Of a stretch of 64,000 nt of DNA, positions 24,906 to 33,766 are shown piece after piece. Under the pieces are notes generated by a model. It had not been told where the DNA came from. It searched no databases and worked only from the letters and a program-made list of their open reading frames with translations. Within the stretch, counting starts at the first letter, position 1. Every line of letters starts with the position of its first letter. The translations under genes were made by a program, and so were the position numbers. The DNA comes from Mycoplasmatota bacterium (lineage in GTDB: Bacteria; Bacillota_I; Bacilli_A; Haloplasmatales; Haloplasmataceae), in assembly GCA_018394295.1 (NCBI GenBank), contig CP074573.1, positions 1,991,156 to 2,055,155 of the forward strand, given 5' to 3'.

Positions 24906-25970
24906 TTAATGACCACTCTTTTTCCATTCTTCTACTTCTTCTACTGTACCAAGAACAAAATGATTAGGTTCAACTTCAATCCACTGCCCTTTATTATAAT
25001 CGACTTTATTTTTATCATAATGAATCCGAGTTCTACTTTGTTCATAATCAGGGTCTGGAAGTGGAATCGCTGATAATAATGATTTAGTATAAGGATGAAA
25101 TGGGTTATCATTAATATGATCTGAAGTACCTAATTCAACTAATTTTCCTAGGTGCATTACGCCAATTCTATCTGATATATATTTTACCATCGATAAATCA
25201 TGGGCAATAAATAAATAAGTTAAGCCAAATTCTTCTTTTAAATCATTTAATAAGTTAACGACTTGAGCTTGAATTGAAACATCTAATGCTGAAATCGGTT
25301 CATCAGCGATAATAAAGTCAGGATTAGTAATTAAAGCTCTCGCTATCCCAATTCGTTGACGTTGTCCACCAGAAAACTCATGCGGATAACGACCAGCATG
25401 GTCTCTACTTAACCCTACTTTTTCAAGTAATTTAAATACTTTTTCTTCCCGCTTATCTAATCTTGCTTTATTAGATAAACCCTTTGTATCGATTAAATGA
25501 TGAACATCTATTCCTTCTGCAACAATGTCTACCACTCTTAATCTTGGGTTCAAGCTAGCCATTGGGTCCTGAAAAATCATCTGCATAGATTTTCTCAGAT
25601 CAGATTTTACAATATTATCATGTTTAGCGGTTTTTATTAATTCTTTTAAATCAGTCATTTGATCACTTTCTTCTGATTGCCCTTTTTTCATTTTTAATAT
25701 ATCTTTTTTCCATCCATCAATAGACATATGACCAACGGCAATCCGTTCCCCTTTATAAAAGATTTCTCCACCTGTTGGCTCATATAACCTAATAATACTT
25801 CTACCTGTTGTTGATTTACCACTTCCTGATTCACCAACTAATCCAAAGGTTTCTCCTTTATAGATTTCAAATGATACATCATCTACTGCTTTTACAACTG
25901 ATCCACCACCGATATGAAAATACTGTTTTAAATTCTTAACTTCTAATAAAACTTCTCTATTTTCATTCAC
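24906..25970 (-). CDS. oppF: Oligopeptide ABC transporter ATPase OppF
   Basis: The 354-residue ATPase energises oligopeptide import with OppD. It shows Walker [12 protein letters not shown] near residue 46, Q-loop [12 protein letters not shown] near 133, signature [10 protein letters not shown] near 197, Walker [13 protein letters not shown], and the C-terminal oligopeptide/dipeptide extension [12 protein letters not shown]. Between Walker A and the Q-loop there is an extra Lys/Glu-rich segment of about 45 residues ([11 protein letters not shown] and after). GTG 25970 is taken as start since AAAGGAG lies 9 nt upstream; it overlaps the oppD stop. It is the last gene of oppABCDF and is followed by a terminator. 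Confidence 0.93.
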
Positions 25971-27366
25971 GAATCGCCACTCCTTTTTTCGCATAGCGTT
26001 TTTTAATTACATTTGGCATTTCAACTTTTGGAGCATATTCATGGAGTAACCAAGTTGCTGCATAATGTGTATCGCTTATTTTAAACAAAGGTGGTTGTTC
26101 TTCAAAATCTATTTCCATCGCATAATCACTACGAAGGGCAAATGCATCACCTTTAGGTGGATATAATAAATTAGGTGGTGTTCCAGGGATTGAATATAAT
26201 CGTTCTTTTAAATCATCTTTATCAGGTTTTGAGGCAAGTAATCCCCAAGTATAAGGATGGGCTGGTTCATAAAAAACATCCCTTGATGTACCAATCTCGC
26301 ATATTTTCCCAGCGTACATAACAGCGATACGATTCGCTATATTAGCGACGACTCCTAAATCATGGGTGATAAATATGACTGCACAACCTGTTTTTTGTTG
26401 TAGATCTTTTATTAATTCAATTATTTGTGCCTGAATGGTTACATCTAAGGCAGTGGTTGGTTCATCACATATTAAAATATTTGGATTACAAGCAAGTGCT
26501 ATCGCAATAACAATTCGTTGTCGCATTCCACCAGAGAATTGATGTGGATATTGTTTCATCCTTTTTTCAGGTCGATCAATTCCAACCAAACGAATTAACT
26601 CAATTGCCTTTTTGTACACTTCATCATAAGTTAATTCTTTTAATTTATGTTTAATAATACTAAGACGTTTCCGTAACTCTTTTCTCTTCTCTTGATTTTT
26701 ACTATATCCTTTTATCTCTTGAATAAGGGATGCTTTCTCTTTTTGAAGTGCTTCTTTTTGTATGATTTTTTCTTTCTCTATTTTTTGATATTTTTCTAAA
26801 TCTGCTTTTTCTTTTTCTAATGCGTTTTTAATTAATTTATTGTTTTTATCAATCAAGCCTTTTAATTTTTTTATCATATCTTCGTCTTTTGTATTTTCTA
26901 GATCATTTTCTAATCGTTTAATATTTGAATTTAATTCTTTAATCGTTCTTTCTTTTTCTGTTTTAATACTCTTTGGTGTATAAAACATTTGATGCTTAAT
27001 GAGTGGTTCCATAATTTGTTTTCCTATTGTCATCGTTGGGTTAAGTGAAGTCATAGGGTCTTGAAAAACCATCGCTATTTCTCGTCCACGAATATGATGC
27101 ATTTGTGAATCTTTTAATTGTGCGATATCAATGACTTCTCCACTTAATTTTTTATATAGGATTTCACCACTAATAATCTCTCCATTTTCAGCTAATAACT
27201 GCATAATTGCTTTTGATGTGACTGATTTGCCAGACCCGGACTCACCAACAATCGCAAGTGTTTCTCCTCGATACAAATCAAAACTAATATCTCTTATGGC
27301 ATGAACTCTACCTGCATGCGTTTCAAAAATAACATTTAAATCATTTACCTCTAATATTTTTTCCAT
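25963..27366 (-). CDS. oppD: Oligopeptide ABC transporter ATPase OppD with coiled-coil insertion
   Basis: The protein has all OppD landmarks: Walker A GESGSGKS at 41-48, Q-loop [12 protein letters not shown] near 98, signature FSGGMRQR near 276, Walker [13 protein letters not shown] near 295, and the C-terminal oligopeptide extension [12 protein letters not shown]. At 467 residues it is about 120 longer than usual OppD. The extra length is a Lys/Glu-rich predicted coiled coil at about 125-245, inserted in the helical subdomain between Q-loop and signature. No stop or frameshift interrupts it. It ends in TGA, which shows TGA is a stop in this organism. AGGAAGGTGAT precedes the ATG, 12 nt past oppC. 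Confidence 0.93.
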
Positions 27367-27378
27367 GTTATCACCTTC

Positions 27379-28566
27379 CTATCGTCCTCTTAATCTTGGA
27401 TCAAACGAATCTCTTAAGCCATTAGCTAATAAATTAATTGCTAACAAGATTAATGATAAAATGATGGTTGGAATCCATAGCATGTATGGTAACATAACAC
27501 GTTGTGAAATTCCTCTTGTGATTAAATTCCCTAATGAAGGTTGATTTACAGGAAGTCCTAAACCAATAAATGATAAGGTTGCTTCATAGAAAATTGCAGC
27601 TGGTATATCAAATGCAGCTAATATTACTAATTGACTAATTACATTAGGTAAAATATGCTTAAAGATTAAACGTCGATTACTCGCTCCCACTGTTTTAGAG
27701 GCTAATACAAAATCGTGATCACGATATCTCAAAAACTGCGCTCGAATCATCATGGCGACATTTATCCAACCTGTTAATACCATCGCAATAACCATCGTCC
27801 AAAATCCTCGTCCTAAAATAGATGCAAGTAAAATTAATAATACAATACTTGGAATACTTCCATAGATTTCTGCAAAACGCATCATCACATTATCAATTTT
27901 AGTTCCACCATAAAAACCAGCAATAGCCCCATACAATGTACCAACAACAATGTCAAAGATTGCGACTAATATCCCAATTGATATTGAATTTCTAACCCCA
28001 TACCAAACCCGAATCCACTGGTCACGGGCACCATCATCTGTTCCAAATGGAAAATATAAGAACTTTACATTATTTTGTGCATACATGTCATGAGAAATTT
28101 TACACATTTCAATTCCCTGCTTATCTATTTCACATGACTTAATTGTATAAGTTCCTTCTTTATATTTCCATGAAGTTGCAGGATTGGTTAAATTTCTTCT
28201 CGCAATCGTTACATCTATCTTTCCATTAAACCAACCAATCCATTCAAGTCCCTTAATTCGAGGAGGTAAACTTGTCAAGTAACGTTTTTCTACCATCACA
28301 CTTGGATTATTGGGATATGGTATTTGTGGTTCAATAATAGTTGAAGTTTTTGAAACTAGGGTGATTCCCCAAGAGAGAATATATAACAATACTAGAGTTG
28401 CTAAACAAAATGAGGCAATTTTATTATGAATTAATCGTCGTAAAGAGTCTTTCCAATAACCTAAACTTTTTCCAATGATCTTTTCTGACTCAATCGATTT
28501 ATTTTTTACAATTTTAAATTTTTTACGATCTAATTTTGGTTGACTTCCAGAAATTGAATTTTCCAT
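27379..28566 (-). CDS. oppC: Oligopeptide ABC transporter permease OppC
   Basis: The 395-residue protein has a soluble N-terminus of about 45 residues, a first membrane span (about 52-72), then an outside segment of about 110 residues before the remaining five spans. The EAA-loop region containing GASNRRLIFKHILPNVI near 300 contacts the ATPases. Usual OppC proteins are 300-340 residues, so the external loop is enlarged; it contains two Cys close together (SCEIDKQGIEMC) that may pair. The terminal DSFDPRLRGR is typical. It follows oppB by 2 nt and precedes oppD. Confidence 0.93.
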   Translation of the reverse strand: MENSISGSQPKLDRKKFKIVKNKSIESEKIIGKSLGYWKDSLRRLIHNKIASFCLATLVLLYILSWGITLVSKTSTIIEPQIPYPNNPSVMVEKRYLTSLPPRIKGLEWIGWFNGKIDVTIARRNLTNPATSWKYKEGTYTIKSCEIDKQGIEMCKISHDMYAQNNVKFLYFPFGTDDGARDQWIRVWYGVRNSISIGILVAIFDIVVGTLYGAIAGFYGGTKIDNVMMRFAEIYGSIPSIVLLILLASILGRGFWTMVIAMVLTGWINVAMMIRAQFLRYRDHDFVLASKTVGASNRRLIFKHILPNVISQLVILAAFDIPAAIFYEATLSFIGLGLPVNQPSLGNLITRGISQRVMLPYMLWIPTIILSLILLAINLLANGLRDSFDPRLRGR

Positions 28567-28568
28567 TA

Positions 28569-29603
28569 TTATTCACCCCAATTTAATCTTGTTCTAAATT
28601 TTAATATAAATTTCTTAATCGATTTTATAATAAATCCTTCTCTATTATTTTTAGCTAAACGGATACGTGGGTCAATAAATCCATATAAGATATCGACAAA
28701 TAAAATGACAACCACATACATTAAACTATAGAAAAAGTTGATTCCTAAGGTAGCATAGGTTTCTTTACTTTGAGTGAAATTAACTAAATTCATCGCTAAA
28801 CCAGGAATTGAAAAGAATTGTTCAATGACTAACGTTCCGGTTATTAATCCTATTGACATTGGTCCTAAAATAGTGATTACAGGAATTAAGGCATTTCTAA
28901 TAGCATGTTTAACAATTACACTTGTTTTTGACAATCCTTTAGCTCTAGCTAATAAAATATAATCCGTACTAAATACTTCTACTAATTCCGTTCTCATATA
29001 ACGCATTATTGAGGCGATTGGACCAACTGATAAAGCAAGTACTGGCATGATTAATGCTTTGTATTGGTCTGCTAGGGTATAACCTAACTTAGGATCAGCT
29101 CGAGTAAAAGTTAACGGCAAAATATGATAATTAATCGCAAATATTTGTTGCAGAAATGCTGCAAAAACAAAAGATGGAATGGATATCCCCAAAACCCCTA
29201 TTGCCGTCAGGAGATTATCTGTGATTGAATTTCTTTTGATTGCTGATAAAGCACCTAGTATTATACCTATCGATGTACCAATAACTAGTGCTGTTGCTCC
29301 AATTTGAGCAGTTAATGGTAATCGAACTTTTATGTAATCTTGATAAATATCTTTATACGTATTCGTCGCAATTGTTCCACCAAAATCCAATTTAGTGACT
29401 TTATACATATATCGACCATATTGAACTAATACAGGATCATTTAATCCATACTTTTCTTCTAATCGTTCACGTTGAGCAGGTGATAATTTAGGGTTAGTAA
29501 AGGGTGAACCTGGCATTAAATACAAAAAGAAGAAATTGATTGTTAATATAAGGATTAATGAAATAAATATTAATACAACACGATGCCAAATATATTTAAT
29601 CAT
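28569..29603 (-). CDS. oppB: Oligopeptide ABC transporter permease OppB
   Basis: The 344-residue inner-membrane permease has the OppB/DppB layout: first span at about 9-30, an external loop with SPAQRERLEEKYGLNDPVL, then the five-span transport domain with the EAA motif ARAKGLSKTSVIVKHAIRNA near 225 and the closing DPRIRLA near 325. It forms the translocation channel with OppC. AAGGAGGAAT precedes the ATG. A hairpin lies between it and oppA, which would lower transcription of the permease genes relative to the binding protein. Confidence 0.94.
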   Translation of the reverse strand: MIKYIWHRVVLIFISLILILTINFFFLYLMPGSPFTNPKLSPAQRERLEEKYGLNDPVLVQYGRYMYKVTKLDFGGTIATNTYKDIYQDYIKVRLPLTAQIGATALVIGTSIGIILGALSAIKRNSITDNLLTAIGVLGISIPSFVFAAFLQQIFAINYHILPLTFTRADPKLGYTLADQYKALIMPVLALSVGPIASIMRYMRTELVEVFSTDYILLARAKGLSKTSVIVKHAIRNALIPVITILGPMSIGLITGTLVIEQFFSIPGLAMNLVNFTQSKETYATLGINFFYSLMYVVVILFVDILYGFIDPRIRLAKNNREGFIIKSIKKFILKFRTRLNWGE

Positions 29604-29712: not shown

Positions 29713-31533
29713 TTAATGATTCGCTACATTAAATTCTAAATACCAAGCGGTTGTTGATCCTCCAATTTTAGCATCTGGACGACTTGCATAACTTGCTTGA
29801 GTTGCAGAATCTCTTAGTACAGCTCGATCAATTTGACCTTGTAGATAGAGTTGCACTTCAGTTTCAGGATTAATATTTGGTTTAACTAACCACACAACTT
29901 GATTCAAATCTACTTGTTCTACATCCCAATAATGTGTATTTTTTGTAATGATATGTTTGTCATCATTTTTCCATGTTGAAAAGTAAAATGGGCCATTATA
30001 TAATACAGTTTCTGGATGTTGTGAAGTAGCATATTTAGTCATACCTTGTTCATCAGTTCCTTGAGCATTATAAAATTGCTCATTAACTGGATAGAACGAT
30101 GGGAATGACATTAACCCTAAGAAATACGTTGAATCATGAGATAAAGTCACATTTAATGTATTATCATCTACCGCTTCAATCCCCATATTATCTAAAGCAG
30201 TTTGAATGGTTTCAGTACTATCATTAGGACTTAACTTCATAATTTCACTAGAACCTACCAGACCAATGGTATCAAGCATATATTGATATGGACTAGCCTC
30301 ACGTGGATCTGCTAACATCCGCCATCCAAATACAAAATCTTGTGCTTTAACATATTGTGGTTGTCCATCTACAGTATAAACATCACCAGTTGAAGTTACC
30401 CAAGGCATTCTTCTTAAGTGAAATGTATAAGTTACTGTTCCATCTTCATTTGTAGTTTTATCCCAATTTTCAGCTGCTCCTTCAACAATAGGTGTTGCTC
30501 CTTTCGGATTATGAGAAACAGTTAATCCTTCATTAATAGATCCTAATGTAAAAAATGAGACTTGGTCTTGTGCTGTCCAAGATTTTAAATCGGGAATATT
30601 TGAAGTTCCTAATAAATTTAATGTTTTATTAAATGTACCATCATCATTTATTTTGTTTGAAACAACCCATTTATAGAAATAGTCAGGACCAACTTTTTGT
30701 CCCCATAGATTATCAATTTTTGTATTAGTTAAACTAACTGCCTTTGATTGAAATATTGGCATTACAACAACATCATCATTCACAAGTATTTTTTCTGCTT
30801 CTAATAAAGCATTAAATCTTTCTTCTCCGGTAATAACTGCAGTTTTAGCGTCGTTCACTAATTTGTCATAAGTAGGATTATTATATTTAATATTATTTAG
30901 TCCTGAATCAGATAGATATAAATCTAAAAATGTTATCGGATCTGAATAATCTGGACCCCAACCTGAGAATATGATATCAAAATCACCAGTTTGTTGTATT
31001 TGTAATTTTTCACCAAAAGTAACCACATTTAAATCAATAATAGCACCTGGTAGATTTTTTTCTACTTCAGCTTTTATATGTTCATATAATGGTGTCCATG
31101 CTTCAGAACTATGAACAAGCAATCTAAAGGTTACTGTTTTATCCCCTATATCATGTCTTTCTTTCGCAGTTTCCCATAATTCTTTTGCTTTTACCACATC
31201 ATAATGATTAAAACCAGCTGGTGCCTTCGATCCATCAGGCATGGTATAAACATTACTTTCTAATTCTGGATATTTTTGTGCTGATGCATCTCTAAAATCT
31301 ACTCCATTATATGAGTAAAAATCAAATGGAACAAAATAGTCAGCTGGAAATGAACCATTTGCTAATAATACATCCGTATAATATCCTTTGTTAATCGCTA
31401 TCGATAAAGCTTTACGTACATCTACTTCTTGGATCATGACATCATTTAAGCCACTATCTACCGGTCTTTTTCGACATCCAGCGAAAAAACCTACAATAGA
31501 TAATACAGTAAATAGACCAATTATTTTTTTCAT
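29713..31533 (-). CDS. oppA: Oligopeptide-binding lipoprotein OppA, circularly permuted
   Basis: The 606-residue protein starts with a lipoprotein signal (MKKIIGLF...GFFAGC, Cys20), so it is anchored outside the membrane and delivers peptides to OppBC. Its order is abnormal for SBP_bac_5. Residues 37-294 (VDVRKALSIAINKGYYTDVL, then SGWGPDYSDPITFLDLY, up to GPDYFYKWVV) are what normally forms the C-terminal half. Residues 297-606 (TLNLLGTSNIPDL, FHLRRMPWVTS, LYNGPFYFSTW, ending WYLEFNVANH) are the normal N-terminal half and stop where the other half should begin. Each half occurs once, so this is permutation, not duplication. ATG 31533 has GGGAGG upstream. Misassembly of tandem oppA genes is the main alternative. 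Confidence 0.88.
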   Translation of the reverse strand: MKKIIGLFTVLSIVGFFAGCRKRPVDSGLNDVMIQEVDVRKALSIAINKGYYTDVLLANGSFPADYFVPFDFYSYNGVDFRDASAQKYPELESNVYTMPDGSKAPAGFNHYDVVKAKELWETAKERHDIGDKTVTFRLLVHSSEAWTPLYEHIKAEVEKNLPGAIIDLNVVTFGEKLQIQQTGDFDIIFSGWGPDYSDPITFLDLYLSDSGLNNIKYNNPTYDKLVNDAKTAVITGEERFNALLEAEKILVNDDVVVMPIFQSKAVSLTNTKIDNLWGQKVGPDYFYKWVVSNKINDDGTFNKTLNLLGTSNIPDLKSWTAQDQVSFFTLGSINEGLTVSHNPKGATPIVEGAAENWDKTTNEDGTVTYTFHLRRMPWVTSTGDVYTVDGQPQYVKAQDFVFGWRMLADPREASPYQYMLDTIGLVGSSEIMKLSPNDSTETIQTALDNMGIEAVDDNTLNVTLSHDSTYFLGLMSFPSFYPVNEQFYNAQGTDEQGMTKYATSQHPETVLYNGPFYFSTWKNDDKHIITKNTHYWDVEQVDLNQVVWLVKPNINPETEVQLYLQGQIDRAVLRDSATQASYASRPDAKIGGSTTAWYLEFNVANH

Positions 31534-32458: not shown

Positions 32459-33766
32459 TTAATTATTATCTGATATTTTATATAACGTTTGACCCTCTTT
32501 ATTTTTTAATATTGGTAAGCACCCATTTTCTAGTACGCTAAAATCCCAGATATTTTCATCATAATTAAGTGTATTGATATACCAATTCTTATCTAGTAAC
32601 TCTTTTTCAGTTATAATACTACTAGTTGGAATATCATAATTTTCAATAGTTTTGCCACTATATATAAACCCTTTACTTAAGTCATAATTTCCATAGCTAT
32701 AAATATTTCCTAAAGTAAAATCAAAGGGACTATATCTATCAGATGGCAAAAATTCATTTTGATTAACATATACATCACCTAATACAAAACTGTTTCTTAT
32801 TATACCTCTACCAACTATTCCTCCAACCAAATTATTGCCAATAATAGTAGAATTACTATATGCATTTGAAATAAAACATCTTAAACAAACGTTATATCCT
32901 ACTATTCCTCCAACATAATTATTACCGTTAACTGTCCCCACAGCATACAACTTCGTAATGTTTCCACGATTCTCTCCTGAAATCCCTCCTATATAATCCT
33001 GCCCTTCTACTAGTCCAGCAAAAGATGATAGTTCGATTATACCGCTATTTTCTCCAACTAATCCACCAACAGTATCATTACCTTTAACATTTCCTTCTAC
33101 TTCAATATTAAATAGTCTACCATAATTAACTTTAGTTACTGTACCAACTCTATCTGTATTAGAATTTATATCTACATTAATAAATCTTAAATTACTTATT
33201 TGACCAGTTTTACCAACACAATAAAATAACTCTTGGTGTAAATTATTGATTGAATAACCTTTTCCATCTAGAGAACCAATAAATTTATTGTTTATATCAC
33301 ATTTATTATTTGTTTTATAACTATAGTTAGTTAAATCTATATCATTTGTTAAATAATACTTACCATCTAAATTATTATGTATTTTATAAAAATCTCTAGG
33401 TGAACTAATTGATTTAGTTGTATGCTGCTCAAAATATACTGTGGCTAAGGGAAAAACTGTAGTAAAACAATATAAGGCTAATATTAATCGCCATTTTTTA
33501 GAATTTTTTTTAACTAATATTGACTTATTATATAGTCTTTTTACTGGATCATAAACTGTATCATAAATATTATTTAATTTAGATACATACTTATTATTCA
33601 TGCTATTTAATACAATAAAAATGACAATAATAATTATAAATTCAATTATTAAACTTAACATAATAGAAATTACAAAAAAATTATTATCATAATATAAAGT
33701 AAACAAATATGCTAATGTGATTTGCATAATAAAAATTAAAACAAATATTTTACCCTTACCTTTCAT
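32459..33766 (-). CDS. Membrane-anchored protein with GLUG repeats
   Basis: The 435-residue protein has three hydrophobic segments (about 6-26, 30-52, 92-112), so the remainder is probably outside the cell. From about 175 to 315 it carries several GLUG-type repeats, each with VGGLVGEN, IGGISGEN, VGGIVGYN or similar, which form a beta-solenoid-like surface in bacterial surface proteins. The N-terminal spans replace the usual signal peptide. AAGGGGAT lies 8 nt before the ATG. It lies between two near-identical hairpin repeats and next to an intron fragment, which suggests acquisition as a block. Adhesin-like or wall-associated role is possible but not shown. Confidence 0.75.
   Translation of the reverse strand: MKGKGKIFVLIFIMQITLAYLFTLYYDNNFFVISIMLSLIIEFIIIIVIFIVLNSMNNKYVSKLNNIYDTVYDPVKRLYNKSILVKKNSKKWRLILALYCFTTVFPLATVYFEQHTTKSISSPRDFYKIHNNLDGKYYLTNDIDLTNYSYKTNNKCDINNKFIGSLDGKGYSINNLHQELFYCVGKTGQISNLRFINVDINSNTDRVGTVTKVNYGRLFNIEVEGNVKGNDTVGGLVGENSGIIELSSFAGLVEGQDYIGGISGENRGNITKLYAVGTVNGNNYVGGIVGYNVCLRCFISNAYSNSTIIGNNLVGGIVGRGIIRNSFVLGDVYVNQNEFLPSDRYSPFDFTLGNIYSYGNYDLSKGFIYSGKTIENYDIPTSSIITEKELLDKNWYINTLNYDENIWDFSVLENGCLPILKNKEGQTLYKISDNN

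Follow-up and report, generated by a model that had tools for sequence, protein, structure and literature searches.

An oligopeptide-binding lipoprotein with its two parts in swapped order, and recurrent circular permutation among its relatives

The opp operon and the order of parts in its receptor

The window analyzed here is a stretch of 64,000 nucleotides from a Mycoplasmatota bacterium of the family Haloplasmataceae (CP074573.1, positions 1,991,156 to 2,055,155), whose genome assembly comprises 3.29 Mb in two contigs. It contains an opp operon with the following genes and features:

24906..25994, minus strand: oppF ATPase (a homologous second ATPase is present in other operons)
25963..27366, minus strand: oppD ATPase with a charged insertion (ORF list; context comparison)
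27379..28566, minus strand: oppC permease with a large extracytoplasmic insertion (ORF list; context comparison)
28569..29603, minus strand: oppB permease (ORF list; context comparison with 20 operons)
29713..31533, minus strand: oppA, circularly permuted SBP_bac_5 oligopeptide-binding lipoprotein of 606 aa (ORF, translation, Pfam, reversed order against PDB chains, order test)
29716..30633, minus strand: normal N-terminal part (start of domain I, domain II, middle of domain I), residues 301-606 (canonical profile 36-305; 5kzt 13-278)
30613..30666, minus strand: new junction, from the old C-end GPDYFYKWV through a linker of about nine residues (VSNKINDDG) to the old N-start LNLLGTSNIPDL (junction profiles A1 and A3)
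30640..31443, minus strand: normal C-terminal part (domain III and the last segment of domain I), residues 31-298 (canonical profile 311-551; 5kzt 285-529)
31474..31533, minus strand: lipoprotein signal peptide, residues 1-20, with lipobox Cys20, MKKIIGLFTVLSIVGFFAGC (translation)

The oppA frame is the sole binding-protein gene of the operon, and the set meets the criteria for an Opp importer, namely two permeases and two ATPases. It starts at an ATG, and its lipobox (...VGFFAGC), terminating at Cys20, satisfies the Gram-positive lipoprotein signal criterion for OppA. The protein scores 161.3 bits against SBP_bac_5 (PF00496) relative to a cut-off of 32.4, with two stretches that together cover the profile from about 3 to 366. 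Their order is not the normal linear one of the family: profile positions 214-366 come first and 3-210 follow, each once, in a single frame without stops (whole-genome coordinates). The same reversal is seen against solved structures, in that residues 31-295 correspond to residues 285-529 of the 5kzt chain and residues 301-602 to its residues 13-278, and 6npo and PrgZ (4faj) show it too. On a canonical profile of the family the order is likewise 311-551 followed by 36-305, across a linker of nine residues, and the cut site was also viewed residue by residue. The N-terminal part closes with WYLEFNVANH, which is also the end of the protein. Chance can be ruled out as the source of this order because both parts match one family, with E-values of 3e-20 and 1e-26 against PF00496 and below 1e-27 for both against 5kzt; the family motifs NGPFYF, YWD, GWGPDYSDP and DFVFGW are all retained. 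Hence, as judged from its translation, the protein is circularly permuted: the parts occur once each in swapped order, with the old ends joined and the new ends at one site. The initial annotation had described a lipoprotein signal (Cys20) followed by the second and then the first half of SBP_bac_5, each half present once with in-frame junctions, in a gene heading oppABCDF. The ORF, Pfam, PDB and canonical-profile comparisons bear out the order, the uninterrupted frame confirms that the junctions are in frame, and oppB, oppC, oppD and oppF lie directly downstream in an intact operon, so that this description is correct in all checkable particulars.

Permuted receptors in other genomes

Every circular permutant contains the junction of the old C-end with the old N-start, and a profile of this junction is therefore usable for any cut. 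Genome-wide searches with such a profile (first A1, then A3) covered 395 genomes of the class and 392 of the phylum, as well as three families and an order, in partly overlapping sets. They amount to about 1,500 genomes, almost all from one class (1,502 genome searches, with overlaps), in addition to plasmid records. The frames were placed on a canonical profile of 555 positions built from normal-order relatives. The two-sided matches of permuted genes are clearly separated from the one-sided matches of normal-order genes: with A3, the former scored 268-401 bits and the normal-order genes no more than 218 bits; one weaker two-sided match (207 bits, genome G728) was later confirmed as permuted.

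The genome junction searches yielded 37 permuted ORFs, which fall by the position of the cut on the canonical profile into cut A (near 305/308; 18 ORFs), cut B (near 390; five) and cut C (near 477; 14). Together with the G728 gene, which has cut A, and a fourth type, cut D (156/159), these make 39 permuted OppA proteins spanning six GTDB families (f1, f3, f9, f13, f19 and f22) and one Clostridia isolate. The cut D gene came from the plasmid search; it belongs to Subdoligranulum variabile TSDC17.2-1.1 (Clostridia; OY725879.1), where it sits at the tail end of an operon with complete oppBCDF. The junction linkers range from 0 to 21 residues, and a lipobox is present in 36 of the 37 permuted proteins checked, the remaining one being truncated by a contig end. 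All of the first 20 operons examined, and later ones too, contain oppBCDF and no SBP gene other than the permuted one. The initial annotation had suggested looking for the same junction in related genomes; it is found there, including in collinear orthologues from two other genera, and its recurrence at four cut points across dozens of genomes is a larger finding than had been foreseen.

Domain boundaries are available for pneumococcal AliD (domain I, residues 29-63, 191-296 and 583-617; domain II, 64-190; domain III, 297-582; PMC11192437) and, for domain III, Salmonella OppA (270-486; PMC6305025). From the alignments, cut A, that of the window, would lie at the boundary of domains I and III; cuts B and C would fall within loops of domain III, and cut D within domain II. 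Cuts A to C conform to a rule by which new ends are confined to lobe 2 or its border, but cut D of the Subdoligranulum gene breaks it.

Among about 3,000 plasmid records with a match, of which the best-ranked were inspected, only OY725879.1 was verified as permuted; the other listed plasmid and phage matches of high coverage consist of two or three pieces over about 1.4-1.6 kb, as expected of the normal order. The rarity of permuted OppA outside the window's phylum rests on plasmid and phage records only. One Phyllobacterium match (H6), which looked permuted by tblastn, proved to be four tandem normal genes: the plasmid of Phyllobacterium sp. T1293 carries four normal-order oppA ahead of oppB (L155 2304-9001, plus strand), and the C-end of one copy with the N-start of the next mimics a permutation junction in tblastn.

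Two individual cases may be recorded here. In G728, a normal-order oppA heads one opp operon (L157 6088-7809, minus strand) and the cut A oppA tails another (L158 7075-8781, plus strand). The permuted receptor of genome G009 (L047 7376-9256, plus strand) bears an acidic STDDE repeat tail beyond its new C-end.

Route and number of the permutations

In nearly every permuted protein, the nearest normal-order relative is identical for both parts; as an example, the parts of L128 share 63.5% and 67.5% identity with the normal-order L143. This fits the duplication of one gene and excludes, for nearly all of these proteins, a chimera of two different paralogues. Permutation by duplication has been defined previously (PMC3320104), and we infer that the permuted OppA proteins were most likely formed by tandem duplication and trimming. 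Here, a tandem copy of one oppA gene would have had its C-end fused to the N-start of the next, the internal signal peptide would have been lost and the front one kept, and the outer parts would have been trimmed to leave the signal and a permuted body. The initial annotation had likewise supposed a fusion of tandem oppA genes with loss of the outer halves, a supposition that the shared nearest relatives fit and do not prove. Tandem arrays of normal oppA, such as the four ahead of oppB in Phyllobacterium, exemplify the proposed precursor arrangement and its raw material. No duplication intermediate, fused but only partly trimmed, came to light.

A recognized alternative route to circular permutation (PMC3320104) is fission followed by fusion, by which oppA would have been split into two genes that were later joined in the opposite order. 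A split might be tolerated at the domain boundary at which cut A sits; however, each of the four cut points, including the two within domain III, would require its own split, and no split half genes were found, the short ORFs with half matches lying at or near contig ends. We therefore consider this route unlikely, without ruling it out.

The number of permutation events was approached by rotating the permuted sequences to the canonical order and treeing them together with normal-order genes, with which they are intermixed in the resulting trees. In the bootstrap trees of a 54-row set, cuts A, B and C require three changes apiece; another tree of rotated sequences requires 10 changes, and a 75-row tree 12 label changes with nine switches between permuted and normal order. 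AU tests reject single clades for cut A (p=2e-77, or 2e-5 without L047), cut B (1e-8), cut C (0.002) and all permuted genes taken together (1e-6). Furthermore, different receptor forms occur among close relatives whose operons share one gene order: normal in L157 and L159, cut A in L161 and cut B in L160. Thus, the permutations seem, from these trees, to have arisen many separate times, through about nine to twelve switches. Their exact number is uncertain because of long branches (L016, L092, L158) and unresolved forks; the forks within the cut B/C clade would also be compatible with fewer events or with a reversion.

The occurrence of the same three cut points in several families, with type C alone spanning f9, f13, f19 and f22, might instead point to a few ancient permutations that were spread by horizontal transfer. 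Had genes been transferred after their permutation, however, each cut type should stay together in the gene tree. Instead, normal-order genes separate the members of A, of B and of C, and the AU tests reject the single clades. Transfer as the general explanation is accordingly improbable; for type C on its own, one event with later changes could still be accommodated, given a p of 0.002 against one clade and the unresolved forks.

Conservation, function and known counterparts

Full-length, collinear and equally permuted orthologues of the window protein are found in two other genera of Haloplasmataceae, with 72% identity in G004 (contig CALFRW010000113.1, uncultured Haloplasmataceae) and 50% in G003. 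In the comparison with the G004 protein (L007), dN is 0.20 and dS 1.35, alike in both parts, and dN/dS over the pairs tested ranges from about 0.09 to 0.26. By these estimates, both parts are under purifying selection. In genome G001, from the window's own genus, nothing matches the permuted OppA, and the only SBP_bac_5 genes are two different ones; the permuted receptor is thus not universal in that genus.

The order of parts, the lipoprotein signal, the operon, the conservation, the selective constraint on both parts and the repeated separate origins in relatives are shown by the sequences. We consider it very probable that the window OppA is a working oligopeptide receptor of an OppABCDF importer, its mature domain permuted at the boundary of domains I and III; its folding, peptide binding and delivery are inferences. 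No reliable structure is available, an AlphaFold2 model made from only four alignment rows having reached a mean pLDDT of 43.5 and a pTM of 0.33. The protein would be expected to adopt the usual two-lobed cluster C fold of OppA, because the old termini lie close together in domain I and are bridged by a short linker. By inference from the family, in the absence of binding or expression data, peptides would be bound between the lobes and then handed to OppBC.

A genuine permutation might also survive as a decaying or repurposed remnant while another OppA performs the transport, and the same genome does have OppA-like SBP_bac_5 genes of normal order elsewhere (C1:167 kb and C1:740 kb). Nevertheless, here and in the relatives an intact oppABCDF operon has no SBP gene besides the permuted one, both parts have a dN/dS well below 1 and the family motifs are kept, and we regard a remnant as highly unlikely. 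An assembly artefact, in which a tandem pair of normal oppA genes (tandem normal genes exist in Phyllobacterium, G012, G023 and G034, and a collapsed pair could mimic the junction) or a single normal gene was collapsed or swapped, is refuted for practical purposes, since three genera share the same collinear permutation along the whole protein, which excludes a local mis-assembly, three cut points recur and agree across independent assemblies even though many relatives are fragmented drafts, at least some of them metagenome-assembled, a lipobox signal precedes the permuted body in all checked proteins but the truncated one, and both parts are constrained.

For a working receptor, the main physical outcome of the permutation would be a shift of the lipid anchor from domain I to the hinge, domain III or domain II. 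In type A, that of the window, the lobes would be left with a single covalent chain crossing instead of two. One could imagine that this repeated re-siting of the anchor is a selected trait that tunes docking to OppBC or ligand capture, in which case permutation would be routine in the evolution of these receptors and not an accident. The permuted OppA proteins are most likely working peptide receptors, but their function and adaptive value are inferred; a selected re-siting is a tentative and on the whole doubtful idea, and whether the re-siting is selected or neutral cannot be told from the evidence.

The nearest precedent is TpMglB-2 (Tp0684) of Treponema pallidum, a circularly permuted glucose-binding lipoprotein that binds its ligand and changes shape on binding, and for which tethering was likewise raised as a possible cause (PMC4990184). 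Like the window OppA, it is a natural circular permutation of a tethered binding protein of an ABC importer; it differs in belonging to the type I/cluster B sugar class, hence to another family, and in having one described topology. Its permutation introduces an additional lobe crossing, where cut A would remove one. The window protein does not qualify as a TpMglB-2-like (type Ic) member, its sole Pfam match being SBP_bac_5 and its PDB matches being members of that family that bind peptides, nickel or heme. The SBP_bac_5/OppA lipoproteins (PDB 5kzt, 6npo, 1b05; pneumococcal AliD, PMC11192437) share with it the family, the lipoprotein anchor, the opp operon and the segments of all three domains, and differ in keeping the two parts in unswapped linear order. 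In the domain-swapped dimer of AliC (PMC11192437), which is unlike it as well, the swap is quaternary and the chain itself unpermuted. Among the 60 best-matching PDB chains, none has its best match across the new junction, and none is permuted. In keeping with the initial annotation, which knew of no described permuted OppA, the literature searched, outside which lay most subscription papers and all bioRxiv preprints, yielded no permuted OppA or SBP_bac_5 protein. DNA methyltransferases are cytosolic enzymes without a signal peptide or lipid anchor; in contrast to them, a permuted OppA must keep the front signal peptide and lose the internal one. Recurrent permutation of these methyltransferases, with permutation and duplication intermediates, is documented in work cited in PMC3320104.

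As a rule, a natural circular permutation is described as an individual case, set apart by long divergence. The present receptor family alone provides dozens of examples with four cut points and roughly ten switches, in effect a natural experiment on protein topology. Close pairs differ in topology yet share 64-68% identity and the operon position, and they allow tests of the tolerance of new ends, of anchor position and of the number of lobe crossings in an ABC importer, as well as of how permutation proceeds in genes with signal peptides. Annotation that is blind to domain order conceals such proteins under an ordinary Pfam label.

OppD (25963-27366, minus strand) has a charged, coiled-coil-like insertion of about 110 residues within the ATPase; its orthologue in G004 (L084, 464 aa) is equally long and that in G003 (L050, 354 aa) is shorter by about that insertion. 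OppC (27379-28566, minus strand) exceeds the textbook OppC through an insertion of about 100 residues past the first transmembrane segment, and OppC frames beside permuted genes measure 309-401 aa among the relatives. Elsewhere in the window, 32459-33766 (minus strand) encodes a membrane-anchored protein with GLUG-like repeats (GGLVGENSG, GGISGENRG).
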